Positions 15,390 through 39,425 of a DNA stretch of 64,000 nt are shown here, one piece after another. Source of the DNA: Eutreptiella sp. 'Long Island Sound 2002'. Lineage: Eukaryota > Euglenozoa > Euglenophyceae > Eutreptiales > Eutreptiaceae. The DNA lies in contig OZ038385.1 of assembly GCA_964036045.1 (NCBI GenBank), positions 59,057,919-59,121,918 on the forward strand. Direction: 5' to 3'. Numbering within the stretch: position 1 is the first letter of the stretch; every line of letters begins with the position of its first letter. The position numbers and the translations under genes are program-made. The notes under the pieces were generated by a model. The model was given only the letters and a program-made list of their open reading frames with translations, did no database searches and was not told where the DNA came from.

Positions 15390-17535
15390 GAACTCAAACG
15401 ACGAACTCAAGACTAGACTAGACTAGGGTGCGGCAAGGACAAACAAAGTAAACGCCAAACAAACACAAGTAAATGCGCTTGCTCTTGGGCGTCGCCAAAA
15501 CCAATGAGTGGAGTCACCGAAAATAAAGCATAGCACGCTAACAACCGAAGGAGCCTCTCCTCTTCCCTTGTCTATTTATGCCACATGGTGCCTACCTCGA
15601 ACACGGAGCCAACCGACATGACCAACACCACGGAGCGGAGCAAACACCAGACATGACGAGAAACCGACGAAACAACACGCCGCTAAACAACACGCGGCAA
15701 CGACATAACACCAAAGAAACACGAGAACACCGCGGAAAACGACTAAAGGAGGAGTACAAGGCCACGCTACGACACCGGCAAGGAGGCACAAGGCAAACAA
15801 ACACCAAACAACCACAAATGAAAGCGCATGCACGGGAGTGCCGCCAACAATCAGAGAGTGAAAACGCCAAGTGTAAAGTGTAACACATTAACTACCGGTG
15901 CAACCTCTCGATCCCATATCCATGGCCAACATACCAAATGGTATGGCACGCCCCGCGGAGCCAACCGAAGTGAACGGCATCACGGATTGGAGCACGCGCC
16001 GAACATGGCTGAGAACCAATGGCACAACACGCCGTGAGCCAACGCACGGCAACAAAACATGACGCTGGGTATCACGAACACACATACACGGCTCGCACCA
16101 CCGTACAACGCCACACAACAACGCAACAACACCATGTACCGAGACAAAACACGTACCCAAACACCACACAACACCGATCACAACAACACAACGCGGCACA
16201 ACAAAACACCACAACGAACACGCAACCACAAAAACGCGGGAAAACCGCGACAAACAACGCCACACGACATCACCCAGCGGAGCTACATGGCACCACAATG
16301 GAGCTACGTAGCGCAACCAACAAGACAAAACCACAACACCACGCAACGCCGAGACACACCACACGACAACAAACCCGACAACACGGAACACAACACCACA
16401 GCCAACGGCAAAACAACGGTGCACAACACAACGTGTTGTACAACGCAACCAACCGACAAACAACAACACACAACATCGAACAACGGTACCTGACGCCACA
16501 CACCAACGTCCCACCCAACGCACCAAAACACAACGCGACAACACAGCACACCACAACGCAACGCACGCCAAGACACATAACGCAACAAGACGAAACCCAA
16601 CACCAAAACAACCCCAACGCGACACGCGAAAACGGACAGCACAAAACACACAACCCAATACGCGCACGCAACGACACACGGCGCAACGGAGCAACGCAAA
16701 GGTGGGCGCAACACGGGGAACCCACCTGGAACCAACACAAAACACGACGCGCCACCACGCACCACAACTGCACACTACTACACATAACGTCAACACCACC
16801 ACCAACAACAACCGGACACAACCATATACCAACACCACGACATGACCCGGCACAGCGCAACACACTGTGACGCGCCACACAATACCACGGCAACACGCGG
16901 TACCGTACCACAAGACGGCACTCGACAAACAGCGGCTGACCCAACAGCGGCACACAACACGCGACACCACAACCCAACGGCAGCCACACGACACCACACA
17001 ACACAGCGCAATGCTACACAATACAACCAACAACAAAAACAACATAAACCGCGGCATGGAACAGCCAGCGCCCGGCACCGCAGGACACCACCTAACGCGA
17101 CACAACGAAACAGCACAGCACGCACTACGACACGACGCAACGCCACGACCACACTACGCCGCACAACCCAACGCCGGCCAACACGGCGCGACAAGGCAAC
17201 ACCAATACGCAACGCCGCGCCACAAACCACAATAAAAAAGGCCGTGACCCGACGTGACCTGACCCCACATCTTATGTGCCGCAGCACGTCCAAATGGCTG
17301 CTGCTGACCGACGATAAAGAGCGCAATTTGTACCGTGCAATACAGCAGGCAAACGAGATCCCGGAGACGCTGACACCAAGGGCAAGAGGTATGCCACCTA
17401 CCAATCCTGTAAGGTGCACACACGCATGCGAAAACACGCGGCGGAAAAATGGGAGGTGCACGTACAAGCGAAGCCTCCACAACCAAATACGTGACACGCA
17501 AGAAGACCACACACGCAATGCAAACACAGGACACG
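15390..17535 (+). other. T-poor 5' untranslated region of the giant LINE
   Basis: This leader runs from the insertion junction to the ORF1 start codon. From about 15420 to 17230 the plus strand is very rich in A and C and poor in T, so stop codons are rare on both strands and long frames arise by composition alone. No protein motif is seen. The first 0.7 kb contains tandem monomers, a likely promoter region by analogy with monomer-driven LINE promoters. Confidence 0.6.
15427..16125 (+). repeat. Tandem 5' monomers of about 350 bp
   Basis: Two diverged units follow one another. Matching landmarks are GGCAAGGA (15432 and 15777), an ACCGAAGG/ACCGGTGCAACCTCTC block (about 15545 and 15893), CGGAGCCAACCGA (15604 and 15956) and CAACACGCCG (about 15673 and 16023). 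The spacing is 345-353 bp. A third, more diverged unit may follow, but I could not delimit it. Confidence 0.65.
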
Positions 17536-17539
17536 ATGG
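17536..17539 (+). repeat. 4-bp target duplication ATGG, left copy (LTR element)
   Basis: ATGG here and at 19748-19751 flank the LTR element. The duplicated bases include the ATG of LINE ORF1, so the downstream ORF1 kept a start codon but was cut off from its leader. Confidence 0.75.
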
Positions 17540-17574
17540 TGAAGCGGTGGTGGGGTGCCCAGGCTTTTGGCTCC

Positions 17575-17982
17575 TTATTGCCCAGATATTGTGAGGATTC
17601 TGTAGTTTGACGCTTTGCTTCGCTTCACTAGTTCCGTTGCTACGGCCCTTGAAGTTCCTGCAAAGTTTTTGTCGAAATCCCTGATTTTTCGCAAAATCTC
17701 TTGAGATTTGTGAAACTCGGAAAAGCCTCTTTTCTCTGGACGTGCAAGCGCCTCCAGTAGCGCACCAGCCCCACTCTTGGTCATCCTTCTAGGCACGGAG
17801 CGACACACGAGGAGCACTGAAATCACTTCGGCGTCCGTCGTTCCCACAGGGTTCTCCATGTCCATAGCTTGGCTTAAATCATCGTAGGACCCTTGCATGG
17901 TCCCATACATGACACAGTCTGGTGTCCTGTGCACAGAAAAGGGCAGAGTGTTTGGTCTCTGTGAAGCACAGATCCCACGCAT
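17575..17982 (-). CDS. LTR-encoded 135-aa protein of unknown function (copy A)
   Basis: This uninterrupted frame lies wholly inside the LTR, starts with ATG and is preceded by an A/T-rich TATA-like block about 60 bp upstream. The product is mildly basic, with a helical C-terminal half containing EILRKIRDFDKNF. I see no signal peptide, membrane segment, Cys cluster or known family motif. The twin in the other LTR differs at one residue (His here, Asp there, in SEF[H/D]KSQ). It could be a real accessory protein or chance coding in a young repeat. Two nearly identical young LTRs cannot tell these apart. Confidence 0.4.
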   Translation of the reverse strand: MRGICASQRPNTLPFSVHRTPDCVMYGTMQGSYDDLSQAMDMENPVGTTDAEVISVLLVCRSVPRRMTKSGAGALLEALARPEKRGFSEFHKSQEILRKIRDFDKNFAGTSRAVATELVKRSKASNYRILTISGQ

Positions 17983-18040
17983 GCCCGTAACTTATGCTAC
18001 ACCCTTGGATGAACCCGTCGTAATTAAAATTAATGATCTG

Positions 18041-18056
18041 CAATAAAAATTTATTG
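18041..18056 (-). promoter_or_regulatory. TATA-like block in the LTR
   Basis: The near-palindromic CAATAAAAATTTATTG lies upstream of the 135-aa frame on the minus strand. It is repeated at 19519-19534 in the other LTR. It could serve as TATA element, polyadenylation signal or both, as LTRs require. This is inferred from sequence and position. Confidence 0.4.
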
Positions 18057-18269
18057 TAAAATCACTGCCTTTTGGTGGTCTTTCATGCCTGAGCGTGAGC
18101 TGGCAATTATCGCCTGCGACATTCTGGCGCTTCGCGGCAGCGTTCGCGCTGCCTGTCCGCAGGCTCCAAAAGGTCTACGGAGTACCTAAGGTACATTCAT
18201 CCATCCCAGGAAACACCCATTGAGTGGTCTGTTCTTGCGCAATCGTGGACAGCCCACGATTTCGCGTCA

Positions 18270-19017
18270 CCCCTCTCCTTAAAAGGCTTGCTAGGCTGAT
18301 GGCGGCTCTGCAAGCCCCACGCGTGGGTGTTTCCTGTGCATAGTATACACGCGCTGACGCCTCTGCGCGCCAGCAGTAAAAGGGTGGGTGCCCAACAAGA
18401 GCGCTGGACCACTGATTGCACTTAGTGGCGCAGACATCTAAATGCTTGGGCTCCACCACCAGAAACATGGCAGATTAATAATAAAATTAATGCCGGCCCA
18501 GAAAATAAAAACGACACAGCGCGCTGGGGTCCCACGCTGGTCTCACTGGACTGGCCACTGAAGAGCGTCAGCGGCGCTCCCTGACTGGTATTTACGTACC
18601 AAACCCCTTCGCACACCATGCCTCAATGCGCTTGGCGCGTCCAAGCGCACGGGATCTGCCACGATGCTGTACTCGACGTTGTACAGCGAGGGTCTCTTTT
18701 GCCTCGATGCTGCAGGCTGCCTTGGTCTGCAGCGAGGGCTCCCATGGTGCTTCCAAGGTCAGCATTACTACAGTGAGAGCAGAACAGCTGCGTCACACGG
18801 GGGGAATCGCTGACGATCTTCACGAGCGACGGCTGGGTCTGGTGTCGTGCGGACCCATGGGGCGGAGGGGTGCTACGCAAGCCGGCGCAGCAACGCACCT
18901 CCATACAGCCGAGCGCAGTTTTTGTCCTCGGGCGTTGCACTGCGGATCGCTGGGCGTCTCTGCCGCAGTGCCACTCACGTCACGCTACATGGGACCTGCT
19001 GCACGGTACGATGATTT
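18270..19017 (-). other. Internal region of the LTR element, non-coding
   Basis: These 748 bp between the LTRs show no gag, protease, RT or integrase motif on either strand. A purine-rich tract borders the LTR at 18270-18280. A short imperfect repeat with CAGCGAGGG occurs near 18680 and 18731. The region presumably holds the packaging and priming signals of a non-autonomous element. Confidence 0.6.
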
Positions 19018-19747
19018 TGAAGCGGTGGTGGGGTGCCCAGGCTTTTGGCTCCTTATTGCCCAGATATTGTGAGGATTCTGTAGTTTGACGCTTTGCTTCG
19101 CTTCACTAGTTCCGTTGCTACGGCCCTTGAAGTTCCTGCAAAGTTTTTGTCGAAATCCCTGATTTTTCGCAAAATCTCTTGAGATTTGTCAAACTCGGAA
19201 AAGCCTCTTTTCTCTGGACGTGCAAGCGCCTCCAGTAGCGCACCAGCCCCACTCTTGGTCATCCTTCTAGGCACGGAGCGACACACGAGGAGCACTGAAA
19301 TCACTTCGGCGTCCGTCGTTCCCACAGGGTTCTCCATGTCCATAGCTTGGCTTAAATCATCGTAGGACCCTTGCATGGTCCCATACATGACACAGTCTGG
19401 TGTCCTGTGCACAGAAAAGGGCAGAGTGTTTGGTCTCTGTGAAGCACAGATCCCACGCATGCCCGTAACTTATGCTACACCCTTGGATGAACCCGTCGTA
19501 ATTAAAATTAATGATCTGCAATAAAAATTTATTGTAAAATCACTGCCTTTTGGTGGTCTTTCATGCCTGAGCGTGAGCTGGCAATTATCGCCTGCGACAT
19601 TCTGGCGCTTCGCGGCAGCGTTCGCGCTGCCTGTCCGCAGGCTCCAAAAGGTCTACGGAGTACCTAAGGTACATTCATCCATCCCAGGAAACACCCATTG
19701 AGTGGTCTGTTCTTGCGCAATCGTGGACAGCCCACGATTTCGCGTCA
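19018..19747 (-). repeat. LTR (5' LTR on the minus strand)
   Basis: This is the second 730-bp LTR, with TG and CA ends. The LINE ORF1 resumes immediately after it with the duplicated ATGG. Confidence 0.85.
19053..19460 (-). CDS. LTR-encoded 135-aa protein of unknown function (copy B)
   Basis: This is the same frame as in the other LTR, intact and different at one residue. In the element's own orientation it begins about 287 nt into the 5' LTR and ends 35 nt before the LTR boundary, so a transcript from the TATA-like block at 19519-19534 could cover it. No family was recognised. Confidence 0.4.
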   Translation of the reverse strand: MRGICASQRPNTLPFSVHRTPDCVMYGTMQGSYDDLSQAMDMENPVGTTDAEVISVLLVCRSVPRRMTKSGAGALLEALARPEKRGFSEFDKSQEILRKIRDFDKNFAGTSRAVATELVKRSKASNYRILTISGQ

Positions 19748-22700
19748 ATGGAGCAGGAGCACCAGGACAACGACGCCCGGGGGAAACCCGCAACGCCGAG
19801 CACGCCATCAACAACCACCCAAGGGGGGACACAACGCCCGACCGGCCCCGATGATCTCGGAGGCCCCGGAAGCCGGAAGCACGCACCAGGCACGCCACAC
19901 CCACATCCCACCCACGCGGTACACGGCGAACGCCAGGATCCAACGACCCACGACCACACGAACTATGACCCCGGCACCGCCAACACACCCGAGCCCCGGG
20001 GGGGGGAGACAACACGGGGGGGAGAGACACGACGCCAACTGGAACCGGAACCAGACCAAACCCTATCACAACGTACCGACTACAGTGCCACAAGCCGGAC
20101 CGCAAGTACCGTAACACGCCAGCGTACCCCGAGCCAGGACCGCACGGAGTATAGCCAAGACACATACTACAGCCACATAACACGGGGAGACGCCTGCGAC
20201 CCGACACAAGAACCGGCCTCGTCACAACACACGGACTACAGCGACCGAACCACGAATAAATCCACAAACGCTGCGCCGTGCAGGCGTACACCGAGCCCCA
20301 ACCACACGAATACAGCGCCCAAGACACGGACCATTGCGGCACACCTCACCACGAGGCGCCGCACTGCGACAACCGGGACGAATCCCCGCGACCAGGGCCA
20401 CAAACGGAGACGATGGCCGCGGAGATAACACAACCAAGCCCATCGGAGGACCACACACACGAAGCACCGCTATCCGTGTCCAGTGGCACCTCCGGCACCG
20501 CGATGGACATCCACTCCCAACCAGCCAGCCCTCCTGAGGCCCATGACCCACCCCTGGAGTCACTGCCCAGTGGCCTCGACATCTCCACGAACCGCGACCC
20601 CATGAACCTGGACAACGACCCACTGCAGGACAGCATCCAACGCGTGCTGCAAGTGGCAGCCGACGCGCACCAACAACCCACATGGAGCCTATACCGGGCA
20701 CTCAACGAGGCAGATCAACGGATAACAAGCACAGGAAGCAACCGAGACCCAGGTGCATACATCCAGGAGCTGCGGAGGGACATACACAATGCCCAGCAAC
20801 AATCACCGGAAGGAGTGGTGGTACAGGGACGAGAGACCAAAACTGGAGCGTGGACGAATTTCACGCGGGCCCCACACGCGGAGGAAGCCCTGGATTTCAT
20901 CCAGGAATCCGACGCCCCGCCGCCAGCAACCCTCGAAGAAACAGCGGAGGCTCTCGTCCTCACCCTACACAGTTGGACACGGGGCCACAACATCGTCCTG
21001 CATGACAAGACAGGGCCCCCCTACGCACGCACCGCGACATGCCGACCAAGCATTGCGGCCACGGGAGAAGCCCACCTGGAATGGAAGCCCGAGCGAGAAG
21101 ATGACGAGTATACCCTAGTGCACGCCACCCGGCACGAACATAGGGAAGAGAAGGAGCCTACGCCCGAGCCCGCCGCGACCCCCCCACCGAGACCAACCCC
21201 CCGACACTGGACCCTGTACCGACAGCTGGCCCATGCCCGCACCCTAGCGGAGCACAGTATCCGGCCGTACACGGAAGTTGCATACGTGGAACGCATGCTA
21301 CAAGACTGGACCAAGTACGAAACAGAGGTCCTGGAGGGACACACGGGCCCGCCGGGCGCCACATCCCGTACAACGTGGGACGACATAGTGCCGGACGGAG
21401 ACATCGGAGCGCTGGCTACGACCGTTCGAGCCACGTTCGGAGACGGCTCCAGACCCGACCACCCGTATGGAGACCACAGAAACCCCGCCATCACGAACGC
21501 CATCCTGGCCTACCACAGCTGGTCCACTCAGCAAAGCATCCACCTCCACACCCCGCACGATGACCCACGCGAGTGGTATCCTATTGGGCCACCAGCGCTG
21601 GAGTTCTACCCGCACGAAGATGCAGCCACCGGAGCACACAACATCACCAGCCTTCGACCCACAATGCCACAACCGATACGGGAGCCACACATACCCCCCA
21701 GTCCTACGAAACCCCAAACGCCCACGCGACACGAACACAGGCCCCCCCAACAAGGACACAGCCCGGCAGCCCACGGAAAGGCCGAACCCCCCAACGCCAC
21801 CACAACCGTCCAACAACTCGACAAGCCTCTAACCTTGCGTCACGTCCCAGACAACTACCAACTACCCCGAGGGGGGAACCACAGAAGGAGCACGGCAACG
21901 ACATGGCGACTACCGACAGGCACCATCGATTGGAAGAAAGTCCTCCCACGGATAGCAACAATGGCATCCATGCGCCTCCTTACGCCACACCAAGTACACC
22001 TAACACAGGCCACGCACCTCTTTCTAACCACCCAGGGCACGGCGACCATGGAAGGCCCGGCCCTGGACGACGACGACCAGACGCCCCAGGCGAGACCCAC
22101 ACAAGCGATCTGGATAAACGCGACAACGGGTACCGACATTACCGTCGACCCCGACCCGGAGTGGATGGCTATCCACTACACCCTGGACTGCACCAAGGAC
22201 GACCCCACGCTAACGGAATGGCAGACAAGGTGGGCCGCAGAAGCCAACCGCCTCCACAAGGGCGCCCTTGACGGCACCCTCACGCCGCAGACGATGGAAC
22301 CCGCGGGACGTACCGCCCAGGCACACCGGGACCCCACCAACCACACCCTCTGGCACTACCCCACTACCATACACCCAGAGGCGGTAACCCAGATCAAAGA
22401 GACGCTCTCTCTAACCCTCCCGGACACCCACAACGCCCACCAGCCGGGGAAGTTCACGGTATACTGGAACTTCCCAACAGACACCGGCATGGTGCCCCAT
22501 GTCGCTGAGCCCCAACTGCCCCCGCACTCGCCAAGGCGGCTCAAGCCATGGCGCACAGGGAAGGTGCCCCACAGGACTGGAAACCGAACGTCCTTGTCGA
22601 ACAACGCACCCACCACAACGCCAACAAAGCACAGCAGGCTGGACGCCAAATACACCCGCCATTGCACGACAAAGACGGTAACCTCCAACCCCACAGCCCA

Positions 22701-25039
22701 TGGATGGTACACTTCATACTGGAAGACCATGGGGACAAACGAAAGGGCACAGAAGTACAAATCACTCACGCCCTGGCACACACACACCTCAACTACACCG
22801 TCCCCACCTCAAATGCACTAGTCACCTACGGCGAGGCACGGAAGTCCACGTACAGATTGCAGGCCGACACCGAGGGCATGGCATACACAGTGTACACTTG
22901 GGCAAGGTACGGGGACCTGCCGGCCCCCATCTGGCACCCGGACCCGTCCTGGCAGCAACCTCTCCACGGGAGACGAGTACCACGCCAGAGTGTTAAGCCA
23001 GCGGGGAACACCGCCGCCGGAACCCACGACAACCCACCCCCCCTAAACATCATAAACTCCGCCCTCGCAAACGCTAGAATGCCTCTCATAGACACGGGGT
23101 GCCCTACCCCAGATGACACCACCCACCGCCGAACGTGGGGCACCATCAGAAGGACCCTACACCACGTATCGACCGCGACCAAGCCACCTGGATCGATCAG
23201 GGCTCTGTCACCATCAGGGTGGGGGGGTGGTTGAACACCCTAAGCCCCAACAAACTACGCAGGGTGGCGGGGCCCTACATACTATATCCAGTACCACACG
23301 GCATGGATGGCCCCTGCCCGGAGCTGCGACCCGGGGACCCCCCCTGCGGCCACCCCTGCCCCCACGCACTGTTCCAACCATTGCCCCCACAGCCCGCCCC
23401 ACTCCCAGGTATATACCTAAACACGATAACAGGCGCCAAAGGAGTATACCTCAAGACGGGCAACACCACGGGCCAAGCCGTCCCTCTCGATCAGGTACAC
23501 CACATGGCCCTGGGGCCACGACTACCCAACGCCGACAAACCGCGGAACCCGCTAGCGGGACGCGGCGCACGCGAACCCAGACCAGTGGACCCAAACGCCC
23601 CAGGCCCCGACAGGGCGCTACTACACCTCACCATGAAACACACGGCCCAACTCCCGACCACCCTGGCGGGAGAAAAGTACTTCATCGTGGAGGGACTGAC
23701 GGACGATGTCATCACCCTGGCAGCCAACACCCTGGCGGCCACCACGGACGCGTGGGACGTCGCCGTGGGCCACCCCACGGCGCGTAAGGACAGGGTACAG
23801 GGCACAGAAGACACCCTGACGCCGGACCTTATGAACCACCTGGTGACCCTGACCAGTCCACCGGAACAACACGACCGGAAAACCAAGGGTCCGAAGGTCA
23901 CTGACTGGGCGGTCTTTCATGACAAGCCCCCGGATACCCCCACGGTGACACTAACATGCCACCAACACACATGGTGGGTGGCGCGGTGAAACGCCACGGG
24001 CACAACAGACAAGGTCCACACATTCACACCGGCAGCAAAGCCGGCGACCCCACTGGCACTGGAAGACCGTTTTAGCCACTCCGCCCCCCACACCAACCAC
24101 CCCAGGGCGCACTGGCTAGCCCTCAAAACGGCGATGCACTGGACAGTGGATGCCCCAGCCACGGACACCACGCTACCCGAGACATGGCTTACACTCACGC
24201 ACAACCTGGCAGCATATGTGCGGAAGTAGGGGACAGCACAGGCGCAGCGCTGGATGTCCTGGCCCGCGGACACGGAACGAACTCTCAAACTCCGCACCAC
24301 CAGCCTACAAGAACACACGAATCGGGTTCGGGGTATGCACAGGCCGCAGGAGGGACAGGGACCGGCGTACAGCATATTCCGACGCGACGCACCGAAGCCA
24401 GCCCCCAAACCGGCGCCAGAGCAGCCCCAACCCAAACCGAGGCCCCGCCCGGGGGGAGCGGACACCTCAGCCCGCAGGGCCAAACGGCCCAAACCGGAGC
24501 CCAAAGTGGCCCGAGCGCCGCCGCCACCCGATCCGCAACCGAAGCCGAAGGCCCCAGCATGCCCGCTTTTCATACGGGCGGAACGTGCCGCCATGCACCC
24601 CGAATGGCCAGACGGCGCAGAAGTACAAGGAGTATACGGAACCACGCTTAAAGGGCAACCGAAACAATTCGTATGGTTCCGGGGCAAGATACAGGGCAGA
24701 CTGGCCACACCGGGCCAACACGGCAACCTACAGTTGAAAATCAAGTGGCACGCACTCCCAGAATGGGGCGAAAAAGTGGAGACCTCAAACCTCGAACTCT
24801 GGGACGACAGACAATTCCCGGAGTGCCCGGTGCAGCTCCGCACACCCGCCAACCAGGTACCACCGGGCACCGTCTGGACGGGTGACGTGCCGCAGACATG
24901 GCTGGAGGAACCGGATATACCGGAGGAAGTCGGATTTACCCGAATAGGTGAGGAGGAAAGAAGAGATGGCGAAGCAATAGCACTACACAAGACACATATA
25001 TGGCTGCAGCGATCAACCACAAACTGCGACTGGGACAAT
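19748..25039 (+). pseudogene. Giant LINE ORF1 (about 1,760 codons, broken)
   Basis: The start ATG (19748) is the copy recreated by the LTR element's target duplication; the original lies at 17536. Coding passes between frames near 20280, 22550 and 23140 and meets stops at 23987-23989 and 24227-24229, so this copy is dead. The protein is rich in Pro, Thr, His and Asp. A domain beginning W(S/T)LYR at about 20680 and again at about 21205 is duplicated in tandem: each unit later has LxxHSW (LTLHSWTRGHNIVLH and LAYHSWSTQQSIHLH). The C-terminal third has a basic Pro/Lys stretch (about 24390-24560) and then a compact segment around FVWFRGKIQGRL. No RRM or CCHC motif was found. As in other LINEs, ORF1 probably binds element RNA, but this is inferred from position. 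In copy 2 the reading frame ends at the TGA corresponding to 25037-25039. Confidence 0.6.
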
Positions 25040-28000
25040 GACTACTACCACGCCGCGCCGGGGACCCCACAGGGGCCACCAACATGCGCGCCCCCGAGGT
25101 CACAACTGCGCTTGTCACTCTCATGTCCCTCAACGAACCGGGCGCCCTGTACGACGCGACCAAAGCTCCGGACCTACAAGACGTACCCATCATGGCGAAA
25201 TGCGACCCGGACGCCATGGTGTGGCAGGAGCAGGCCCTCAAAACCCAGACAACCCACCCCAGCTTAACCCCCATCCTCACCAGGACGGGACACCAATACC
25301 GCACCACATGTGTCAAGGGGGTTCCCATGTCCCACAAACGTGAAGTCCAAGTACACATCCACCACCACCTGGGGGTGGAAGGCCGCCTAGAGGCATACGA
25401 ACTGGTAGGCCCAATGTGGCAACTGAATGTCCTCAACGTGCACGTCCCCTTTGGAGACGCCACGGAGACGTTCCTCGAACATCTCATGGAGGCCTACCGA
25501 CAACTTGCCATGATGGGCCCGACTGTCATCATAGGAGACTTCAATGCAGCCCCATCAGCGGACGATCGCGGAGGACGACCGACGCCCAAGGACGCAGCGG
25601 TACAAGTGGCCATGCAACATCTAGGCCTGCAGGACCTCACAGCCTCTCTACGAGGCCAGCCCTCACACAGATCACCACAACCTGGCGCCGCAGATTCCCG
25701 CATCGACCTCTGCTACGCGGACTCGGCACACGTCGAGGTGACGCGGGTGCAATACCATGACCTGCCATCCAAGATCACCGGACACCGACCCCTGGAGGTA
25801 CAAATCAAGGTGCTTCAGGTACCCCCGGCCTCCAGGGATGGCATGGACCACGAAGAACAACCACCCATCCAACCGCCAGGAGAGAACGACACCCACGGAT
25901 GGGTAGCATATTACCGCACGGTACAACGCATCCTGGGCCAGCAAGACAAAACGGACCTCAACCTCGCCATGCGACAGGCGGCCACGGCATGCGGCCTCAG
26001 CGGGCAGCGCAGAACACAGGACGACGCCACCCCGCATCAAGACCTACGATCCCTGGTCACAACCATATGGCACGACAAGCGAGCACTGCACACGGCAATG
26101 CACTCACATGACCTGCAAGCCCAAAATGACGCCCAGGAAATCGCAGCACGACTGGAAACCGCACGCCAGCAACTCAGAGAATGGCACGTCCGCCGGGCGA
26201 AGGAGCTGGCGCAAGAACAACAGCGCTACTTCCAAAACCCCCAACCCTACAAATCACTGAAACACGTGGACAAGGTCCTGGGGAAGACGGGCCACCGAGG
26301 CATCAAGGCGGTACGCCTACAGGACGGCACAGTGACCAACGATCCCAAGGTGGTCCTGGAAGAAGTCCTCAACAGCTTCCTGCGCCAGCACAACACTGAG
26401 GATGGCGATCTGTCAGCATACACAGAGGAACTGATATCCCACCCGCCGAAACTCTACAACCGGACACAGCGACGAGACATGCACCGAACCCCGTTCACAA
26501 TTCGGGAGCTCGATGAGGTGTTGTACAAACTACAACCGGCGAAAACTCCGGGAGTGGACGGACTCCCGGCGGAGCTCTACCGTAGACTACCACTGAACCT
26601 GAAGAGACACTTAGCCGCGCGCCTGTGGGATATCGCCATCGGGAAAACGGACGTGCCACCCGACTGGGCGAACCTAGTACACCCGCTCTATAAGAAAGGC
26701 GACCGGGCGAACCCGGACAATTGGAGACCCATCGTGTGCGCCACCACGGAGGCCAAACTCATATGGATGCTCATCCTCAAACGGGTGGCCCTGGCAGTGT
26801 ACCGGGCTGTACCGCCCACCATGTGGGGGGCCATACCGGGTAGATCACCGTTGGAGGCCATATTTATGCAAGACGCCGTGGTGGACATGGACCCGATCAG
26901 CCTCATCATCACATCCCTGGACGTCAAGGGGGCCTTCCCCGACACCCCGCACCGCCTCCTACGGGCCGTCTGGGAACACATGGGACTCCCCTTCCAGGGC
27001 TTCCAGCAAGCATACCTCGCCACCCGCATGTACGCCGTGAAAACCGACGTGGGCACCACCCCATGGGTCCACCCCGCCATTGGGGTCCCACAAGGGGGTG
27101 CGGAAGGCCCATTCCTCTTCCTACTCGTCACCCTCCCGCTGGCGTTTTACATCCGACGCACGTACCCGGACGTGGCACCATATCCCCTACGGACCACGCT
27201 CCTAGCGTTTGCGGACGACATGGCGGTGGTGACCGCCACCGCGCGCCAACCCCTGCCGACCACCCCGGACCCCGCCAGAGCCACCAGGGTCCTCCACGTC
27301 GTCACCACCTATCTGGAGGGCAATCAGCTGCTGGTACACAACGTCAAATTTGCCACCATGGTACACAATGCACCGCCGCCACCCCTCCGCCCCGGGGACC
27401 TGCCCATGGACCCAGTAAACACGGCCACCTACCTGGGAGTCCAGCAAGCGGCCACCGCAGGCGGGGTCACCCTACCGCCAAACCTGTTACGGCAGCTGAC
27501 AAGGACACTGGTTATAGCATCAGCATCAGCATCACAGCACTCTCCACCCAGGCTTTGGCATACTTCCTACAAGCCGTGCTCAACGCAGCTATAGGATTCC
27601 AAGCCCTGCACCTAATGCACCCCCAACACATGCTACAAGCAGCCATCACCACAGTACGACGAGCGTGGACCATCCACGGCCACCAGCCCACGTCACTGCC
27701 TGCAACGGTGCGTGCGGCATCGCCACCGTACTACGGAGACAACACCGACCACCTCGTCCACAACGCGTACACAGCTCACACTGCGGCCCACCTGCATCGT
27801 CTCATGCACAATCACGAGCCGGAGGTACGGGAAGTCTTCACGCTGACGCTGCGGGAGGCCCAGTACCACCGCAACACCTGCCCCCAATACATACTTCACC
27901 AGCGGGGTCTCCCCACCAAGGTGGGGACCCGCATATGGAACCACCTACAACTCCTACTGCCCCACCACAACCACGTCATCCAAACGAACCATCGGTGCAG

Positions 28001-28855: not shown

Positions 28856-29147
28856 ACGAAGGTCTCGTAGTTCAGCGGTCATGCACGTGACGCCTGAACT
28901 AAAGGTGCTCGGTTCGAATCCCGGTGGAGGCTGAACGCAATGTCCAAGGCGCTAGGGTGTCGGTGACCCCGCGAGCCGGAAGGGACACAGCGTCGGTTCG
29001 AACCCCGGTGGGGGAGGAACGTAGTGTCCTAGGCGCTAGGGTGTCGGTGACCCCGCGAGCCGGAAGGGATGCTGCGAGGGACAGGTAGGGATCACTGATA
29101 CGCTGGAGTTCGGAGATCGCCCGAGCAACTTACCTTACCTTACCTTA
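28856..29147 (+). mobile_element. Dimeric tRNA-like SINE with TTACC tail
   Basis: This 292-bp insert has a tRNA-like head. A-box-like TAGTTCAGCGG (28868-28878) and B box GGTTCGAATCC (28911-28921) have pol III promoter spacing. An anticodon-like stem CGCCT/AGGTG encloses a 7-nt loop between them. The rest is a diverged tandem duplication: each half has GGTTCGAAnCCCGGTGG, then GGCGCTAGGGTGTCGGTGA and CCCCGCGAGCCGGAAGGGA. It ends in about four TTACC units. The 14-bp flanking duplication and the empty site in copy 2 prove mobility. The tail resembles the giant LINE's (CCTA)n tail, so that LINE is a candidate for mobilising it. Confidence 0.9.
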
Positions 29148-30806
29148 CCAAGTACAGGACTGGCAGACGGTCGAGTGGACCACATTCCACCCGCAGACAG
29201 CATACTTACTCCAGTACGTGTACGGCTACCTGACACAGGGCCATGAAAGGAACAATGACTATGTCCGCATGAACCCGGCGGCAACCGAGATCATCCGCCA
29301 GGGGGTGGGGGTGTATGCTACCCGGAGACTCCGACCGGACACCAGCACGCCGTGGGCCTCCAGGGAACGGGGGGCACACATCCATGCCTACCAACCAACG
29401 ATGCCGTGCCGCCTGCCGCACCCGGACAACCACACCACGATCATCCTCGCGGATGCCTCCGGCACTACAAGCCTCACCCCGGCGGCCGGGGGGGCGGCTT
29501 TAGAGTTGGAAGTGGACACGACAAACCGACTGCACCAACGCCACCTCACGGGGGCTACCATCTTCGGGGCCTCCTCTCACGGAGAACTGAAGACGCTGGC
29601 GATCGTCGTGGACGCCGTCAATGACACCCACCAAACGCCGCGTGACCAGACGCACCATGTGTGGGTAGTAGTGGACGCAGCGGTGGACTTCCAAATCGTC
29701 CGCAGGCTGGCGCGGCAACCCCTGCACAAGGCGACTGACTCTAGCCTGGGCACCCAGGCCCTACACCTCTGGACAGCCCTGAGGCGCCTCCCCAAACACG
29801 TCGTCCTGCATCTCGTCAAACAAGAATCTCATCGGTATAGCCTGGGCAACAGACACATAGACCTGCATGCCCACAACCAGCTTGCCGAGCACATGCCGGA
29901 CAGCGAGGACCCACCGCTACGAGACCACATGCACATACACCTCCAGCACCTGCCACCCATCCCACGCCCCGGGGAACCACCAGCCTGGGTGCCAGACGAT
30001 CGCATCTATAACGACACGGGGAGGGCATACCACTACCCACAACCCATCCGCACCATGGCGCACATTCGGGGCAGTCAAGCCGACAACGCCCTTTTGAGCC
30101 GTCTCCAGTACGAAATGCGCATCGCATTGTACTTCTCGGCTTTGGACCCATCCCTGATGCCGGTGCACCTGCAGACACGACGTGCCCAGCTCTTGCTCGA
30201 GCAGCTGCCCCTTCTAGACAGGGTGGCACGCTGGTATGCCCGGCGAGGTATAGACATACCCCCGGAATACACAATATGCCCCTGCCATCTCCAACAGCCA
30301 GAAACATGGGAACACTTCAAACGCTGCCCATTAGCCCAAGAGGACAACCAGCTGGCCACGTGGGCACCGGATAGCACCGTCACACAACACGCCGGATGGG
30401 GCCGGGCCACGCCACCGGCAAATGAGGTTCGACGCCTGATGCGACAGCTGGAAATCAAGGAGGCAGTGCTCAGAGGAGCGGTGCCACTCCAGCTTTACAG
30501 GGTCGTTGCCGACCACGCCCCAGAACCCAGGGCCACAATACGTCACATGCAGCTCACCGCCGTCAGAAGGGCGGACGCACAGCTGCAGCACCGCGTTCAA
30601 GTATACACACAGGAAGCACAACAAACATCCCACGACCGCCGCACGTACTATAATCTCCTCATCCACTACCAACATGCGCAACGTAGCGACTAGCCACACG
30701 CACGGGCCCGCAGCAACAGCCAGGCACCTACCGTAGCACCGCCCGGAGCGCGCGCCCCCTCCCCTGTAGTGGCCCGATCGTCCTGCGAACGACACCTCTC
30801 CTCAGG

Positions 30807-33800
30807 ATGCCCGAAGGTGAAGCACCGCATCCACGGCCGGGGAACCCATGCGGGGTCTGCATGGAGGTGAACGACGACGATGGCAACCCCCTTTGCGGGC
30901 ATGACCTCGGCTGCGGCGGCACGGAGCAGCTGCACTGGTTCTGCAGCCCGTGCATCGCGAACTTGTGGTCGTGCCCACTCTGCCGGCGACCGCAACGACT
31001 CTGCACGGCTCTGCCGCCGCGCGAAACGCAAGACGAAGAGCTCACCCTCCAGACGCTGCGGACTCTGATCCGGCAAAACGTCTGGAACGACGGCGCGGGG
31101 GAGGACAGCCCCAACGTCGAGTGGTTGGACGTCCGCACCGACGAGGACCCAGCGACACCCCCCCCCCCCGCCCCCCCTGGCGCGCACCAACCTGGACGCT
31201 GCCAGACCCGGACGCGGACCCAACGGTTTACGTCCCCGACCACGAGGACTACAACGACGCACCACGGGGCAGTCTGCCCCCCATTGGCAACCTGCCCGGC
31301 AGTTGGGGCTACGTCAGCCCCACGAACCAAAACAACTACCGCAACATCGTCGTCACCCTCACCACCCGCCTCCCGATCGCCTTCGGCTGGCTGGTGGGGG
31401 ACGCGGAATGGGCGATGGGCATCGCCCGCGGTGCCCATGGCGCCGAGTGGGGGGACTTCTTCCACCGCGGCGGGCCCATGACCCCGGGGGCGACCGAGAG
31501 GCTGATGGCGGCCTACCTCACGTGGAGGGGCACACCCCCTCCACGCAGCCTCGAATCGCTGATACAGCGCACACTGCAGCCGCACGTCCCGCCACCACAA
31601 CCGGGCACATACGGCAATGCAGCGGTGGCCAGGATGATGGCCAGAGGTACCCGGCTCCACGGTTCATCCTACTCCCCCCGGAGAATCACCGCAACCATCA
31701 CCACCGCCCCGCCCCGATCCCGCGCCACGACAGCGACTAGGGCCACGAGCGTACGTGCCCGAACGTCGGCCGCGACATCCTCCACATCCCCCGACCCATC
31801 CACCTCCGCCCCCACCATGCCCGCCGCCGAACCACACCAACAACACGCCGCCGACACCACGCGGACTACAGGCGTTCCGGCACCATCTAGGGCCGGCACA
31901 CCACAGAGCCCCCGACAAGAGCGTGCGTCCAAACGGGCGGCGCAACGACAACCAACACAACACCGCACGACCACAGGGAGCCGGGGACACCTAGCATCAC
32001 CTGCCAGGAGCGGAGCCCTACCCGGCCCCACGAATACGGGGGCGGTGGGTACCCAGCCCGGGCAGCCCCCCCGCACCGCACACCCGCACAGGGTACCGGC
32101 CCCGAGCCCCACAGGGAGCCCGCAACCCCTAACACCACCCGTCGCGCCTGCGCACGGCCCACGGCCTGCAGCCAGCCAAGCGGCAACAACACAGGCCCAC
32201 CCGGAACCCCGCCCGCACCATGGCGCACCTGACCGGCCGGCAGCGGACCCAACGTACACGCCGACCGACAACCTCCCCACACGGACACACACCGCTACCC
32301 CGACCGACGCCACCACCGCCCGGCCCTCCGACGCCGGGCACCCCCACACCCACGGCCCCACCGGGGGCCTAACCCCCCGGGCTTCGGCAACGACCGGCAC
32401 GGAGGACCTACCGGCCACAACGCACGGCGGGTCGGTGCCCCAGCAGCACCACGCCCCACCAACCAGACCACCGGCACGACCGGCAGAACCGTCATCTCCC
32501 GGCCGCCCGGCCCCCGGCCCAGGCCCCGGCCCGGATCCGCCACGCACCGCCGCCCCGGCGGACGCCCCGCAGCCCGCGGACCCGGGGGGCCTACCCGAGC
32601 CGCCACCCGTGGCGGGAGGCCACGCCCGGGGGGCACCACCGCCGGCGGACGATGACGCCGAACCGCCTACACCGCCGACCCAACCGCAGCGCGACGCACC
32701 CGCGGTGGGCGCGGAAGGACTGCAGAGACCCCCGCAACGAACGCCGACACCAGCACCAATGGGGGAACCTGGCGGAGGAACGGACCAGACATCAGTGCGG
32801 AGTGCCGACCTGACGAACGACACGGCACACGGAGGAGACGAGGCATTGGCAGATGGCCAGCCTGACGCGGAACCCGAGGGGCCAGCTCCCGACACCGGGT
32901 GTGCGGACGGCCCCCACCGGCCCTCGACCGCGGATCACGCGGGCGCCGCCCCCCGGGCGCACCTGGCAGCCCGCGCAGACACGAGCAGGCCAGGGGAGGC
33001 GCTGCCGCGAGATCCACCGGAAACCAGCGCGGGGTCAGAGGCCCGGGAAACCACGCCCGACACGCCCCGGCGCGCGGACGAAGGAGAAACGTCACCCAGC
33101 GGGCACAACCGCGACGACGACTCCTTCGATGCCTTCATGGACTCCTGCAGGGATGACCCCCGGACGGTCCCAGCACCGGAGATGCCACGCGTACACCTGG
33201 AGCCGCAACGCGACCAGGCGGAGGATACGCCCCTCACGGTGCCACGACAAGCGCACCTCCAGCGTGACTACACCACCCTGGGGCAGATTGCCGCTACGGG
33301 CGAGGGGCAGACGACCGCGAGCGGCGCGGCGGACCGGACTACGGACGAGCGCAACGCCCCAGGTGAGGGCACGCGCGCGGGAGCGGCCACCAACACCGCG
33401 AGTGAGCCTGTCGCCCCACCGCCGGGGCCCGCCCCGCCCTGGGGGCGGGGACACCTGGACTATGCACGCTTGGAGGGTGACGCCGGCCACCCCAGCGAAC
33501 AAGCAGAGCAAAAAGCGACCCAAGACCTAAGCTTCTGGATCCCCAGGCTTGTCACAGGGGAGCAGTTCGAACTGGCGGTCCGCATACGATGGGTACTTTC
33601 TTCGTGGTCCCGCCACCTCGCGGAGGGAGCACGCACCATGGCAGACGTCACGTTTGGTCATCGGACAGGGCACACGCCCCCCGCCACCATGGACCGCCCC
33701 GACCAATGGCGCTATGTGGCCACCCGGCTCATGGCGCATATGGGAGCCTACAGCCCAGATGAAATGAACGGACTGCACTGGCGGTGGCACCAGCGCGCCG

Positions 33801-35671
33801 CCCTGCACATCCGTGCGGCCATGCAGGACCATAATATCTGGAACATCCCTTGATCACCGGGCCACCAGGGACACGCCTCAGGCCACCGGCGACCGCGGTC
33901 CCAAGACGTCCCGGAGTCCCCCAGACAGGCGGCGCGCCGAAACTCACCGGACCACCCACGGGGTCCACCACCCGGTAGGGGTTCCCCCTTTGGCACATAC
34001 AGCAGCCCCCTGCGGCCGTTCGCCCCACGGAGGAGTCCGGGCAGTCCCCACGCCTCGAGGGTGCAAGGCGACACGCCGGAGCAGCGCCAAGAAACCAGGC
34101 ACCCTGGCCGATCCCGTCGCCGCAGCCGCACGCCGCCCCCCGCAGCGCGACGAGTCCTCTTCAATGAGGATATGGACAGGGACCACGGGGGCCCCCGCGA
34201 CCCCCAAGCTCGGCGAACATCATCGACCTCCGACCCAAGACGCCGGTCCAAGAGGCCCCGCACCGAGCGGACGCACATCCCCACCATTCTCACGCCGGCC
34301 GAGCGCGAGCGGCAAGCAACGCTTCAAGCAGACCCGCGCCAGACGGCGGGCGAAACGTCCAGCTCATCTGCCTCCTCCCTCCCGGGGTCAGCGGCCGATC
34401 CGCTACCGAGAGGACCACAGGCCACGGACACGCGACCAAGGGAGCCCGTGCCCGACCCCAGCCCTACTCAAGGGGCGGGGGGGCAGCCCTCCCCGCAGTC
34501 CAGAAGCCGCGAGGCCACGGAGGGCACATCGCGGCAGCCGGGACACGACGCGAGCAGACCGAGGGCGGACACAGAGATGACAGGGACCTCCAGCCCCCAG
34601 GAGCCCGCTGGCCCACTGCCCACCGCCACGCCCTGCTCGATGCCCCAGCAACGGGAACCCCCCACGAAGTACATGCCTGGGGGACAACCGGGCGCCACCT
34701 CACGGCACCCCTCCCCGGCTGACGCGGCACTGGACCAAGATCGGGTGGCCATGCCCCCCGCGCCCCCCCGACCGCCACAGCAACGGGGCACGCATCCCTT
34801 CGACGACGCGGAACTGAAGGCGCTCTACGACATCCACGCTTCCACGCCCTCGAGCGAGCTGGTGGCCACCCTCCGGGAACACCTCCGTAACGTCGACCCG
34901 AACAGGCTTTTCGCCGTAGTCCCCCTGCCACATGCCCCGACAACCCAAATCGTTGTGCGACAGCTCCAGGCGCTCGTCACCCCCGGGACACAGGTCTCTG
35001 ACGACCTCATTGAAGCGTGGATCTGGTGGTTCAACACCCACCAACCGGCCCAAGGAGGCGTATGGGTCCCACACCTGGGCTGGATACACACGCTCATAGC
35101 GCCACCGACGGACCCCAGGCCTGCACCCACCACCGGAGGCCGGGAGCGGGGCGCCCCACCACCGAGACCCGACAACCTCCGTATCCCACCGCACGAGGGC
35201 CTGGAGGCATGGGAAAGCGGGACCGCCCGTAGCAGGGGGCACAACCTCACGAACCTGACGGCGCACTACCCGGAGACGACGCGCGCAGCACCCCCACCGC
35301 GCGAACGTGACCCCGGTACCATCGCCATGATCGTACTGGAGAATGGCCACTACTACCAGGTGCGGATCATCCCGCACCCGCAGGACAACCATTGGAGCCT
35401 GGAGGCCGTCGACTCCATGCTCCAGGCGACCACGGGCCTGCCGAACAACCCTACCCCCCTGCTCCCAAACCAACCCCCGGACCCCCTGACGGCCATTGTG
35501 TCGGGGGCGGCAGGCACCTGGCACCCAGGCCACGCCCTCTACTGCCTCTGGCGGTGGGCGCGGCGCCGCTGGCCGCACACCAGGGCGTGGTCAGCGGCGT
35601 GGAGATTCTACCTCGACGGCCGGCAGCAGATGGAGGCCATCCCGGAGCCGACGGCAGAAAACCCCCACTGA
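30807..35671 (+). pseudogene. Giant LINE ORF3: RING finger plus long Pro/Thr-rich protein
   Basis: The ATG at 30807 lies 113 nt after the ORF2 stop. Residues 15-59 form a RING-type zinc finger: C15-x2-C18, C36, H43-x2-C46-x2-C49, C56-x2-C59, with HWFCSPCI and CPLCR as in E3 ubiquitin ligases. A long Pro/Thr/Ala/Gly-rich, probably disordered region follows, then a folded-looking segment near 33520-33850 (FWIPRLVTGEQFELAVRIRW) and a second at 34800-35650. The last segment has VSDDLIEAWIWWF, GHYYQV and HWSLEAVDSM, faintly like Ulp1/C48 proteases, but no catalytic Cys is clear. Two extra C in the poly(C) at 31148-31159 shift the frame and TGA 33851-33853 interrupts it; copy 2 reads through both places. 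Function in the LINE is unknown: ubiquitination of a host or element protein is one reading. Confidence 0.7.
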
Positions 35672-35734
35672 GCCCAACTTATGCCCCGTCTTCGCGGTTC
35701 ACCAGATCCGGCCACTGAAGCTGGGTGGGCAGCT

Positions 35735-37060
35735 GCAGCCCGCCATCCGCACTGAGACGGAGGCCCGGGCGGCGCACGCGGCCCTGGTGCACGAAATCTT
35801 CAGTGCCCTCCGCAGCGCCCTTGTACGACGTGCGGGTAACCCCCCAGGGCCCTGACCCGCGACCAACCACAGGACCTGCAGCGACGACGCACGGCCGCAC
35901 GCGCACGGCACGAGACCCACACCAGCCACACGCAGGGAAGAAACGGCGCGGCGGACCCGGGACCGCCTCCTCCCACCAGAGAACCGGACGATGACCGTCA
36001 CGACAGCGGCAGCGGGGTCGGCCACGAACCACAACGACCCCAACCGGGCAGACCTCGCCCAACACGACCCCTCGTACAACCCAGCAACGCGCGGCCGCGC
36101 AACATGCTAGGGCACCACCCGTCGACCGGACACACCGGCGGGGACGGCGTCCACCTGCCCAGCACGCACAACGGACACCCAAGGAGTGGAGGCTAGCCTT
36201 AGCAGCCCACGGTGTCAGACGCAAATACGACCCCAGCGACCTCTTCCCACATCCCCCGGGCGAGGGCCGCACTTCCCGCACCTCAGCGACCCGCCTGAAA
36301 CAAGGAAAGGGGGCAGCGCCACACCCGGGACCGCCATCCCACCTGACCCTCCTCTCCCACGTAACGGGTCCGCGAGGGGCCGGGCAAAGGGGCCAGCCAA
36401 ATACGCGGAGCCCGCGGCCGAACCGATGACCACGGGGGTGTTGTCGAACAGCGCACACCACCGGATCCGAGCACTGCCGCTGGGCGATTGACGGCAACCC
36501 GCCGTCCGCACTGAGGCGGAGACCCGGGCGGCACGCCGAGCCCTTGTGCACGCAAACTTCAGTAACCTCCACGGCGCCCCGGTGCAACGCATGGGACGCC
36601 CCCCGAGGACCCTGAGCCGCGCCTGGCGACAGGTCCTACCGCAACGACCCGGTGGCACACAGCCGCGCAACACACCCCAGCAACACCTGACGGTCTGACA
36701 AACCGACGAGACGGATATCAACATGCCCCACACATGCAACAGATGCCCGGAGAGTGGAGGCCAGCCTTCGCAACCCGTGGTGTCAAGCACGCACGGAAAC
36801 CCCAAGACTTCCTCCTACAACCCCCCGGGCGAGGGCCACGCTTCTTGGACCCCGCGACCCACCTGCAGCAGGGAACGGGGCGGCACCACGCCCGGACTGG
36901 TCCTCCTGCCTCACCCTCCTCTGCCGCGAGCAGGATCCACAAGGGGCCGGGCAAGAGGCCCGGCCAAATACGCGGGACCCGCGGCCGGGCCGATAACCAC
37001 AAGAATGTTAACGAAACACCGGCCAGAGTATTACCGTCCAGGGCGAGCATCCGGAGATAA
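35735..37060 (+). repeat. Diverged tandem duplication in the giant LINE 3' region
   Basis: Two blocks of about 0.6-0.75 kb are related. Matching landmarks are CCGCACTGAG(A/G)CGGAG (about 35748 and 36507), AAATCTTCAGTG/AAACTTCAGTAACCTCC (about 35798 and 36548), GAGTGGAGGC (36184 and 36752), CCCCCGGGCGAGGGCC and AGGGGCCGGGCAA (36375 and 36937). Short frames across both blocks share a few residues (such as EWR.A.A..GV), so a further decayed ORF is possible, but no complete one is supported. Confidence 0.65.
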
Positions 37061-37911
37061 GTGCACTGCAGGGACCAGCGCGTACCTCCGCCGGGGAGTT
37101 GGGCGCCTGGGACGCGTAAGGTTACGACACGTATAACCTATGCGAATGGTACGAGGGGCACACCCCCCGCAGACAGTTAACAGCGTCCATGAGGGGGAGG
37201 GGGGCTGCAACATTACCCGGTATTCCTGTCCTCCACAACCCTACCCGGGGCATGCGGGGGGCCACAAGCTCACCACACGGGGCCGCGCCGACCCCCCTGC
37301 CAACAGGCACGGGTGTGTTACGCCGAGCCCAACCCGCCACGTCGGACGGAGCATCCCGACACCACAACACAAGCCGAACCATCCTAACCATCCTAGCCAC
37401 CACACCCGGCACCGTGACACAGACACGCCACCCGAATGACCCGCAACGCACGACACGAGAAGGCGCACGGCAGACAGACAGGCACGAGCACGAGCACAGC
37501 ACCACCGAGCTGGAGCAACGCCCTGGGGCTCCCATGGGGAGCACAGGGACACACCGAGGGGGACCGGCGGGGCCTTGCCACCGACGGGGGTGTACATATG
37601 AGTGGCACAAGCGAAACTGGAAGTACGGCTACGGAGCACCACGAAATACCGGAAAATGGATTGTGCATGCAACACTGCCAGGGCGGGGCAGGGAACAGGG
37701 CAGCGGCAGGGGAAAAAACTTTTTACAGCGGTCCGACCACTTGTCATGGCTTTTCTCCCCCGCGGCGGGCGGGCGGCGCACAGTACAAACGTACCGTGCC
37801 GGCCCCACACACCTGGCACCGACCAACATCGCAACAAGCGGCACACCTGCACACGACAAATCCGACTGCGTCAACGCCCGCTGCGACGACAAGGAACGAA
37901 CGCCGAACAAA
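37061..37911 (+). other. Giant LINE 3' region, no recognised content
   Basis: This GC-rich sequence lies between the diverged duplication and the 378-bp tandem array. It is shared with copy 2, where it is split by the AlkB-LINE insertion, and resumes there at 61612. No coding motif was seen. Confidence 0.5.
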
Positions 37912-38960
37912 CCAACCAAGAGGCGACTAACACGACCACACACCGCCAGAACCACTACAGCGGACGCAACGTGACCGTAAACAGACCGCGCGCGCACCGA
38001 CCAGCACCAAGCTGGCAGGGCGTGCATGGACCGGTGCGAGAGCGACGACCAACGAGCTAGCGACACCGTAGCGAGCCGCGCCCCCCGACCACCATGGCTA
38101 CAAGCACAGAGGAACACTGCGACTCTACCGCTGCGGACGCGGCCCACGAACATTCCCAAACTACACTACACGACACTTGTACAAACCAAGACACCACAAA
38201 CCGACGCAGACACAAACATGCTAGCTAAACGGGCAGGATTCAACGATAAGACCACCGGCAGCAGCGCAACGGACCCCAAACACAAACCCGGCCGACCATG
38301 AGGCGGCCAGGACAACCGCGCACCAACCACACCACAGCTGCAGCCAGCACTTGACCGTAAACAGACCACACGCAAGCCGGCCAACGCCGAACCAGCCAGG
38401 CGTGCACGGGTCGAAACGGAAACGGCGCCCAACGGGCTGGCAACACCATGGTGCGCCACGCCCACCGACGATCGTACCCACGAACACAGCAGAACACCAC
38501 AACGCTGCCAATACAAACACGACCAACCAACGGTAACAAACTACACAACACTACACTTGGACAAACCACGACGCCACTGACCAGCACCGACACGGACATG
38601 CCAGCTGCATAAACAACATGCGGCGGAATGACCACCGGCAGCAGCGCAATGGAACCCACGCAAACCAAGTCGACCATGAGGCGGCCAAGACGACCGCGAA
38701 CCAACAACACCGCAGCTGCAGCCGCCACTTGACCGTAAACAGACCACACGCAAGCCGGCCAACACCAAACCAGCCAGGCGTGCACGGGTCGAAACGGGAA
38801 CGGCGTCGAGAGGGTTGGTGACACAGTGGTGCGCCGCGCCCGCCGACGACCATGCCCACGAACAAAACTTGGCTCTACCATCACGCAACCGACCAACCTA
38901 CATTAACAAACTACACCGCAACCGTACCATGAGACCGACCAACCGACCACAACGACCTAC
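37912..38960 (+). repeat. 378-bp tandem repeats in the giant LINE 3' region (3 units)
   Basis: Units share GACCATGAGGCGGCCA (38294 and 38672), TTGACCGTAAACAGACC and GGGCGTGCATG/AGGCGTGCACGGG. The first unit (from about 37912) is more diverged and the last is incomplete. The period is 378 bp. The plus strand is T-poor, so long frames across the array on both strands are compositional. Copy 2 carries one unit more. Confidence 0.85.
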
Positions 38961-39403
38961 TTCTAACCCCCGGCCCCCCGGGAGAGCGCAAGCTCGACCG
39001 AGTCAGGAGGTGTGAGTGTGCGCCACGGCATGCGAGTCCCGTAGCACGTGCTTCTTCAAGTCGCCTCACACCTACTGAAAACCAACCCAGGTGGGGGTGC
39101 CTGCAGGACAGGGCCTTTGGCCTGGCTCCGGGCCCCTGGGCCCCAGAATCCGGAGGTTGATGAGGATGTGCGGTGGGACCCTCCCCCACGTATCATCCGC
39201 CCGAAGGAGAGGAATGTGAGACTTCGGTCGAACATGGGTTACCTCTCTGGGCAGAACCCGCTGTAGGGTACTGCTCGCGGCGACCGCGCCCTTCCCCCAT
39301 GTGGGGGAGCCGCTTTGTGGGGGCACGTGAAGTAGGGCCGTGGGTGGGTGAGCAAAAGCCCCTTGGTAAGTCCCCCCTGCGGGGCAACCCCAGTCCCGAG
39401 TCG

Positions 39404-39425
39404 ACCTACCTACCTACCTACCTAC
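39404..39425 (+). repeat. (CCTA)n tail of giant LINE copy 1
   Basis: Five CCTA units end the LINE and run straight into the target duplication TACCCAAGAGGAC (39423-39435). A simple-repeat tail instead of poly(A) is known in some LINE clades. The target itself begins with TACC, so tail and target share a few bases. The 3' sequence leading to the tail (about 38961-39403) contains no gene. Confidence 0.9.

Follow-up and report, generated by a model that had tools for sequence, protein, structure and literature searches.

Insertion site and size of the element

We analysed a window of 64,000 nucleotides from contig OZ038385.1 of Eutreptiella sp. 'Long Island Sound 2002', in which a Ty3/gypsy element is interrupted by an insert of 24,033 bp (window positions 15390-39422). 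The insert carries three large open reading frames (ORFs), the second of which encodes an endonuclease and a reverse transcriptase (RT), and an earlier note on this DNA had described it as a long interspersed nuclear element (LINE) of about 21.5 kb. Its ends are marked by an exact 13-bp target-site duplication (TSD), TACCCAAGAGGAC, at 15377-15389 on the left and at 39423-39435 on the right; these are the only two occurrences on the plus strand of the whole window. The insert ends in a (CCTA)n tail that runs directly into the right-hand TSD, and when the flanks are joined at the duplication, the RT frame of the Ty3/gypsy element contains 0 stops, compared with 33 and 48 in the other frames. Subtraction of a nested long terminal repeat (LTR) element with its ATGG duplication (2,212 bp) and of a nested short interspersed nuclear element (SINE) with its 14-bp duplication (306 bp) leaves a net length of 21,515 bp. 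On all of these points the earlier note proved accurate, except that 21.5 kb is the length of the window copy and not that of the complete element: sequence comparison revealed about 520 bp of 5' end that is common to other copies and missing here, which gives a complete length of about 22.3 kb, roughly three times the usual LINE length or more. The insert is a slightly 5'-truncated, nearly full-length copy of this giant LINE (window copy 1).

Organization of the giant LINE

All parts of the element lie on the plus strand. The 5' untranslated region (UTR; 15390-17535, without the missing 5' end) is A/C-rich, lacks 3-base periodicity and starts with tandem monomers of about 345-352 bp (15431-15775 and 15776 to about 16127), whose ungapped repeat score is 42; none of 300 Markov shuffles scored above 18. 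These two monomers of about 350 bp are candidates for a promoter. The likely ORF1 start codon lies within ATGG (17536-17539), which the LTR insertion has duplicated (second copy at 19748-19751). From there the ORF1 region extends for about 5.2 kb (19748-25041) and is followed by ORF2 (25042-30693), ORF3 (about 4.9 kb; 30807-35671) and a 3.7-kb 3' UTR (35672-39422). In window copy 1 all three ORFs are frameshifted, and ORF2 is additionally interrupted by the SINE. Between ORF1 and ORF2 this copy has about 70 bp (24930-24999), compared with about 5 bp in all six copies that we fetched from elsewhere in the genome. In 600-base windows, 3-base periodicity was clear across most of the region from about 20.2 to 35.8 kb, that is, across ORF1 to ORF3, and weak in those starting at 28,590 (which holds the SINE), 30,390, 33,390 and 33,990; none was seen at 15.4-20.2 kb or 35.8-39.4 kb. 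The 3' UTR, non-coding by this measure, contains degenerate internal repeats, including a tandem repeat of about 379 bp whose unit number varies (37912-38957), and a conserved 3' end that finishes in the (CCTA)n tail. Self-comparison revealed no terminal repeats of the giant LINE itself; the only LTRs were those of the nested 2.2-kb element.

The ORF2 product combines an APE-type endonuclease (PF03372, 2e-07, residues 129-242) with a downstream RT (PF00078, 4.1e-16, residues 552-801), and the best PDB sequence matches of the RT were the LINE-1 ORF2 protein (1.1e-08) and then R2. After the RT, RNase-H-like and CxC..H..C motifs, and their order, can be recognized by eye only. ORF3 begins with a RING-like cysteine/histidine pattern, one cysteine of which is absent from a second copy in the window (copy 2, below), and continues through a long low-complexity middle into a C-terminal region; it gave no domain match above the cut-off. 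Structure predictions for the C-termini of ORF2 and ORF3 had a mean pLDDT of 34.8 and 39.5, respectively, and neither was used for a fold search. A hunch that the ORF3 C-terminus is protease-like found no Pfam support and was dropped.

Copies across the host genome

The giant LINE is present in many copies in the host genome. We searched the host assembly (2.28 Gb in 2,205 contigs) and scored the best 53 of 18,259 first-look candidates for ORF2, 40 of 1,116 for the 5' end, 72 of 114,863 for ORF3 and 40 of 1,993 for the 3' end. These lists hold best matches only, so the pair counts below are minimum values, and the numbers of candidates should not be read as copy numbers. Six of the 53 scored ORF2 loci were fetched, all without a stop in the ORF2 match: a non-random choice that favours well-kept copies. 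Three of the six have ends that coincide and enclose ORF1, ORF2 and ORF3, and all three lack the nested LTR element and the SINE. They are C8:60.6 Mb, with 22,339 bp; C15:12.4 Mb, with about 21.94-21.97 kb, its first 30 or so bases being uncertain; and C4:80.3 Mb, whose 24,035 bp include an insertion of 1.70 kb. Starting at window position 15396, all three align with the window element as far as the tail, and they reach about 520 bp further 5'; the C8 and C4 matches end within a few bases of the same 5' place, and that of C15 ends about 30 bases short of it. ORF2 is open over 1,778 codons in two of these full-length copies and over 1,474 codons in the third, and 5 of the 72 scored ORF3 matches are free of internal stops and lie in frames open over 1,594 codons or more.

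The other three fetched copies are 5'-truncated or broken. Later starts, as produced by 5' truncation, were found in window copy 2, C1_28.46 and C21, and C1_28.46 shares its left flank with C1_28.31, so that these two are not independent insertions. All six 3' ends that were read (window copies 1 and 2, C8, C15, C4 and C1_28.46) carry (CCTA)n. One full-length copy is flanked by a 13-bp duplication with 12 of 13 positions matching; together with the cases described in the next section, the TSD lengths seen are 13 bp, 13 bp (12 matching), about 585 bp and 1,007 bp.

We also measured distances between same-strand neighbours from the four separate genome-wide match lists. Eight of the 10 pairs of 5' end and ORF2 found within 60 kb are spaced at 7.77-7.90 kb (one being a window or fetched copy), as are 11 of 13 pairs of ORF2 and ORF3 at 8.06-8.81 kb (two being such copies) and 8 of 16 pairs of ORF3 and 3' end within 30 kb at 5.10-5.52 kb (one such copy). 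The last spacing falls into two classes, five at 5.10-5.15 kb and three at 5.52 kb, which differ by about 380 bp, or one unit of the 3' repeat. Longer links are fewer: one of three pairs of 5' and 3' ends lies at 21.5 kb (C1:154.5 Mb), the two near 35 kb requiring further insertions; one of five pairs of 5' end and ORF3 within 60 kb lies at the expected 16.3 kb; and among seven pairs of ORF2 and 3' end only the window copy's own (13.96 kb) has the expected distance. The remaining pairs have larger distances or link neighbouring copies. Together, the full-length copies and the recurring spacings bear out the earlier note's proposal that ORF1, ORF2, ORF3 and the long 3' region travel as one unit with common ends, and among the few copies whose ends were read, we saw none with ORF1 or ORF3 outside the target duplications. 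One scan each of viral and prokaryotic contig collections, which may not include the genome of the window itself, returned no relatives.

A second copy in the window and long flanking duplications

A second, 5'-truncated copy (copy 2) runs on the plus strand from 39888 to the end of the window at 64000 and ends about 196 bp beyond it. It is 97-98% identical to copy 1 over long matches (divergence 2.2-2.6%) and is interrupted by another LINE at 52235-61596. The earlier note had recognized this copy, but had placed its start at 39891 and had used its gene order as evidence that ORF1 travels with the rest. Copy 2 cannot serve that purpose, as it holds merely the last 0.5 kb or so of ORF1; it is other genomic copies that show the linkage.

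A direct duplication of gypsy sequence, about 585 bp long and with 12 differences in 580 positions (2.1%), flanks copy 2, and gypsy sequence resumes beyond its far side. Similarly, the truncated copy C1_28.46 is flanked by a direct duplication of 1,007 bp with 28 differences (2.8%). Both duplications are far longer than usual TSDs, and their divergence is close to that between copies 1 and 2, as would fit duplications made at insertion. Only one of the two gypsy repeats contains copy 1, which therefore probably inserted later than copy 2.

Selection on the open reading frames

We compared the ORFs with those of older relatives, the elements in which two giant LINE copies sit. The ratio of nonsynonymous to synonymous change (dN/dS) was 0.68, 0.45 and 0.32 for ORF1 and 0.34 for the first 1.5 kb of ORF2, with values below 1 in the coding frame only; other frames gave 1.08-2.37. 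A search of the sequence next to C1_28.46 for an older ORF3 yielded none. For ORF3 we therefore turned to variants among seven sequences across 32432-35671, a span that leaves out the RING-like part; the test excluded reference codons that touch gaps as well as sites covered by fewer than four sequences, and used no tree. Variants shared by at least two copies had a dN/dS of 0.36 (22 synonymous and 20 nonsynonymous, p=0.0016), with 1.34 and 1.84 in the other frames, and singletons had 0.84 (other frames 0.81 and 1.54). As a control, the same measure for ORF2 gave 0.51 for shared variants (p=0.045) and 0.99 for singletons. For the parts of ORF1, ORF2 and ORF3 that were tested, these ratios show a signature of purifying selection in the source lineage; ORF3 itself was probably under such selection.

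Interpretation and alternative explanations

Coincident ends, TSDs of variable length, a simple-repeat tail, 5' truncation, an APE-type endonuclease joined to an RT, and selection on the ORFs lead us to conclude that the insert is very probably an almost complete copy of a LINE of unusual size that moves as a single RNA of about 22.3 kb. Several observations weigh against this conclusion. The evidence is assembled genome sequence; ORF1 is broken in all three full-length copies; and no TSD adjoins the ends of C15 and C4, two of the three, in the flanks examined (the weak 35-base match in C4 lies away from its ends). The assignment of the RT to the LINE type is based on match scores and domain order. 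RNase H in ORF2 has no Pfam or PDB match, the Pfam RING matches of ORF3 are sub-threshold (E 0.07-0.97), and the 3' end folds no better than shuffles (z -0.60). The ORF3 test comprises 42 shared variants in seven copies, tree-free and without the RING-like part, and the wrong-frame singleton value of 1.54 (p=5.5e-4) indicates that base composition biases the measure. Finally, dN/dS is neutral between copies 1 and 2 (1.25 for ORF2, 0.94 for ORF3) and is 0.84, 0.94 and 1.20 between pairs of young ORF2 copies; values near 1 indicate that those pairs show only decay.

Could the extra length instead be a passive passenger, with ORF3 and the 3' region picked up from host DNA by 3' transduction onto a LINE of ordinary size (ORF1 and ORF2)? 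Such a stretch would sit downstream of the RT, just where ORF3 lies, and ORF3 has no domain match above the cut-off. We nevertheless regard this explanation as improbable. ORF3 and the 3' UTR are collinear in all three full-length copies and in many genome-wide matches; all 72 scored ORF3 matches, drawn from the best candidates, extend over 603 or more of the 605 query residues; and the shared ORF3 variants carry the mark of purifying selection. The stretch in question is also about 8.7 kb, far longer than known L1 transductions, which rarely exceed 1 kb in humans and 3 kb in mice according to PMC6431247. It is possible that ORF3 was captured anciently and later put to use. A chimeric assembly, or an accidental stacking of insertions between unrelated 13-mers, is suggested by the highly repetitive nature of the region, where the two copies contain a nested LTR element, a SINE and a further LINE. 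Restoration of the gypsy frame, the empty SINE site in copy 2, the absence of the LTR element from all three full-length copies and the recurrence of the same order and spacing on many contigs make this very unlikely. The least credible alternative, to which we give almost no weight, is a giant Penelope-like element (terminon) or LTR-type retroelement in place of a LINE. Large size and accessory ORFs are indeed known from terminons; PMC6431247 describes them, however, as endonuclease-deficient and as carrying a 3' hammerhead motif, whereas an APE-type endonuclease lies upstream of the RT here, the RT scores best with LINE-1 and then R2, and the window contains no match to an Rfam family at gathering thresholds. 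An LTR type is countered by the absence of terminal repeats belonging to the giant LINE.

The anatomy of the giant LINE fits target-primed reverse transcription. Transcription would start in or before the 5' monomers; ORF1 would bind the RNA; and the ORF2 protein would nick the target and prime reverse transcription, starting at the (CCTA)n 3' end of the RNA and copying its full length, but sometimes stopping early to leave truncated copies. ORF3, with its RING-like start, may help the element, perhaps via the host ubiquitin system. Giant copies do not carry at their 5' ends the spliced leader that opens the LINE nested in copy 2 (see below), and the last 20 bases of that leader are missing from all 28 fetched loci; the template RNA of the giant LINE thus probably starts at its own promoter. 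We can also picture a distinct euglenid lineage of LINEs of about 22 kb that requires a third gene of about 1,620 codons with a RING-like start, and whose strand cuts, hundreds of bases to a kilobase apart, would produce kilobase-scale target duplications; on this broader proposal we judge the chances to be even.

Comparison with known elements

We compared the giant LINE with APE-type LINEs (L1 and the RNase-H-bearing I-type groups), with which it shares the endonuclease-RT order, target duplications, 5' truncation and a simple-repeat tail. Tandem 5' monomers also occur in rodent L1. It differs from these groups in its length of about 22.3 kb, compared with a few kb; in ORF1 and ORF2 that each exceed 5 kb; in a third large ORF downstream of the RT; in a 3.7-kb 3' UTR with a variable 379-bp repeat; and in the two flanking duplications of 0.6-1.0 kb. 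LINEs are generally regarded as compact, their size being limited by RT processivity and 5' truncation. A family of about 22 kb with common ends in several copies implies that RNAs of such length can be copied by target-primed reverse transcription, which makes the giant LINE a natural case for studying how processive an RT can be, what a third ORF contributes and how duplications of 0.6-1.0 kb arise.

Terminons, giant Athena/Penelope-like elements of rotifers, reach 40 kb (PMC6431247). They resemble the giant LINE in size, in the combination of an RT with accessory ORFs and in frequent 5' truncation; unlike them, the giant LINE has an APE-type endonuclease, an RT that is L1-like by sequence score and no Rfam match in the window, and is interspersed, with short duplications in two cases. 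The headings of the same review of giant transposons name giant gypsy elements, terminons, Helitrons, Polintons and Teratorn, and none of these headings is for a LINE (PMC6431247). The literature that we searched, with most subscription papers outside the search, contained no LINE near 20 kb, which is not proof of absence. In a different assembly, that of Euglena gracilis, the published figures that we cite from PMC11252322 are 32.7% unclassified repeats and 1.49% LINE; giant LINEs may explain part of the unclassified repeats in euglenid genomes.

Nested elements and neighbouring features

The nested LTR element in copy 1 (17540-19747, plus strand) measures 2,208 bp, with a target duplication of ATGG. 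Self-comparison delimited LTRs of 730 bp with 1 difference in 730 positions and an interior of 748 bp; the element has no 3-base periodicity and no match to the gypsy flanks at 10001-15376 and 39436-39890. Its absence from the three full-length copies marks it as a later insertion. The SINE (28856-29147, plus strand, 292 bp) is bounded by the 14-bp duplication CCAAGTACAGGACT, and the corresponding site is empty in copy 2 at 44167-44180. It is tRNA-like by eye, and ARAGORN calls no tRNA in it. Its (CTTAC)n tail resembles, without equalling, the (CCTA)n tail of the giant LINE; no further sequence is shared with the 3' end of the latter (38901-39422), and none with 15390-28855.

The LINE nested in copy 2 (52235-61596, about 9.4 kb) is flanked by the duplication GGGGGGCTGCAACAT (52220-52234 and 61597-61611). 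It opens with a 26-base spliced leader of Euglena type, ACTTTCTGAGTGTCTATTTTTTTTCG (52236-52261), which we take to be that of Euglena gracilis, and ends in a short A-run. For the Euglena gracilis leader, PMC4778363 reports 26 nucleotides, of which the last 12 are TATTTTTTTTCG. The leader at one end and the A-run at the other suggest that this LINE was probably copied from a trans-spliced mRNA. It shares its host with the giant LINE and likewise encodes an endonuclease and an RT, but the two RTs are only 24% identical over 278 aligned positions. Unlike the giant element, it has a single ORF2 of 1,453 codons that includes a Pfam RNase H in addition to endonuclease and RT, a poly(A) tail and the 5' spliced leader. 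In its ORF1 region, an AlkB-like match (PF13532, E 0.046) falls below the threshold.

Elsewhere in the window, an open gene of 650 codons resembling a DDE_1 transposase lies on the minus strand at 5845-7797 (PF03184, 1.2e-19), and a tandem repeat based on a 21-bp unit of the TTCCGGAACATG type, partly self-complementary, occupies 8319-8534. With respect to the host, marker genes and the spliced leader point to a photosynthetic euglenid, very probably Euglena or a near relative. Paraflagellar rod proteins mark the Euglenozoa, and euglenids have light-harvesting polyproteins. The rod protein family PF05149 had 39 matches in the assembly (best 1.2e-105) and matched none of 14 control genomes. Light-harvesting domains (PF00504; best 150 scored of 2,610 candidates) occur in tandem in very long open frames: at C9:43.68 Mb, C23:19.07 Mb and other loci, the repeats lie in single frames of up to 6,122 codons, a polyprotein-like arrangement.

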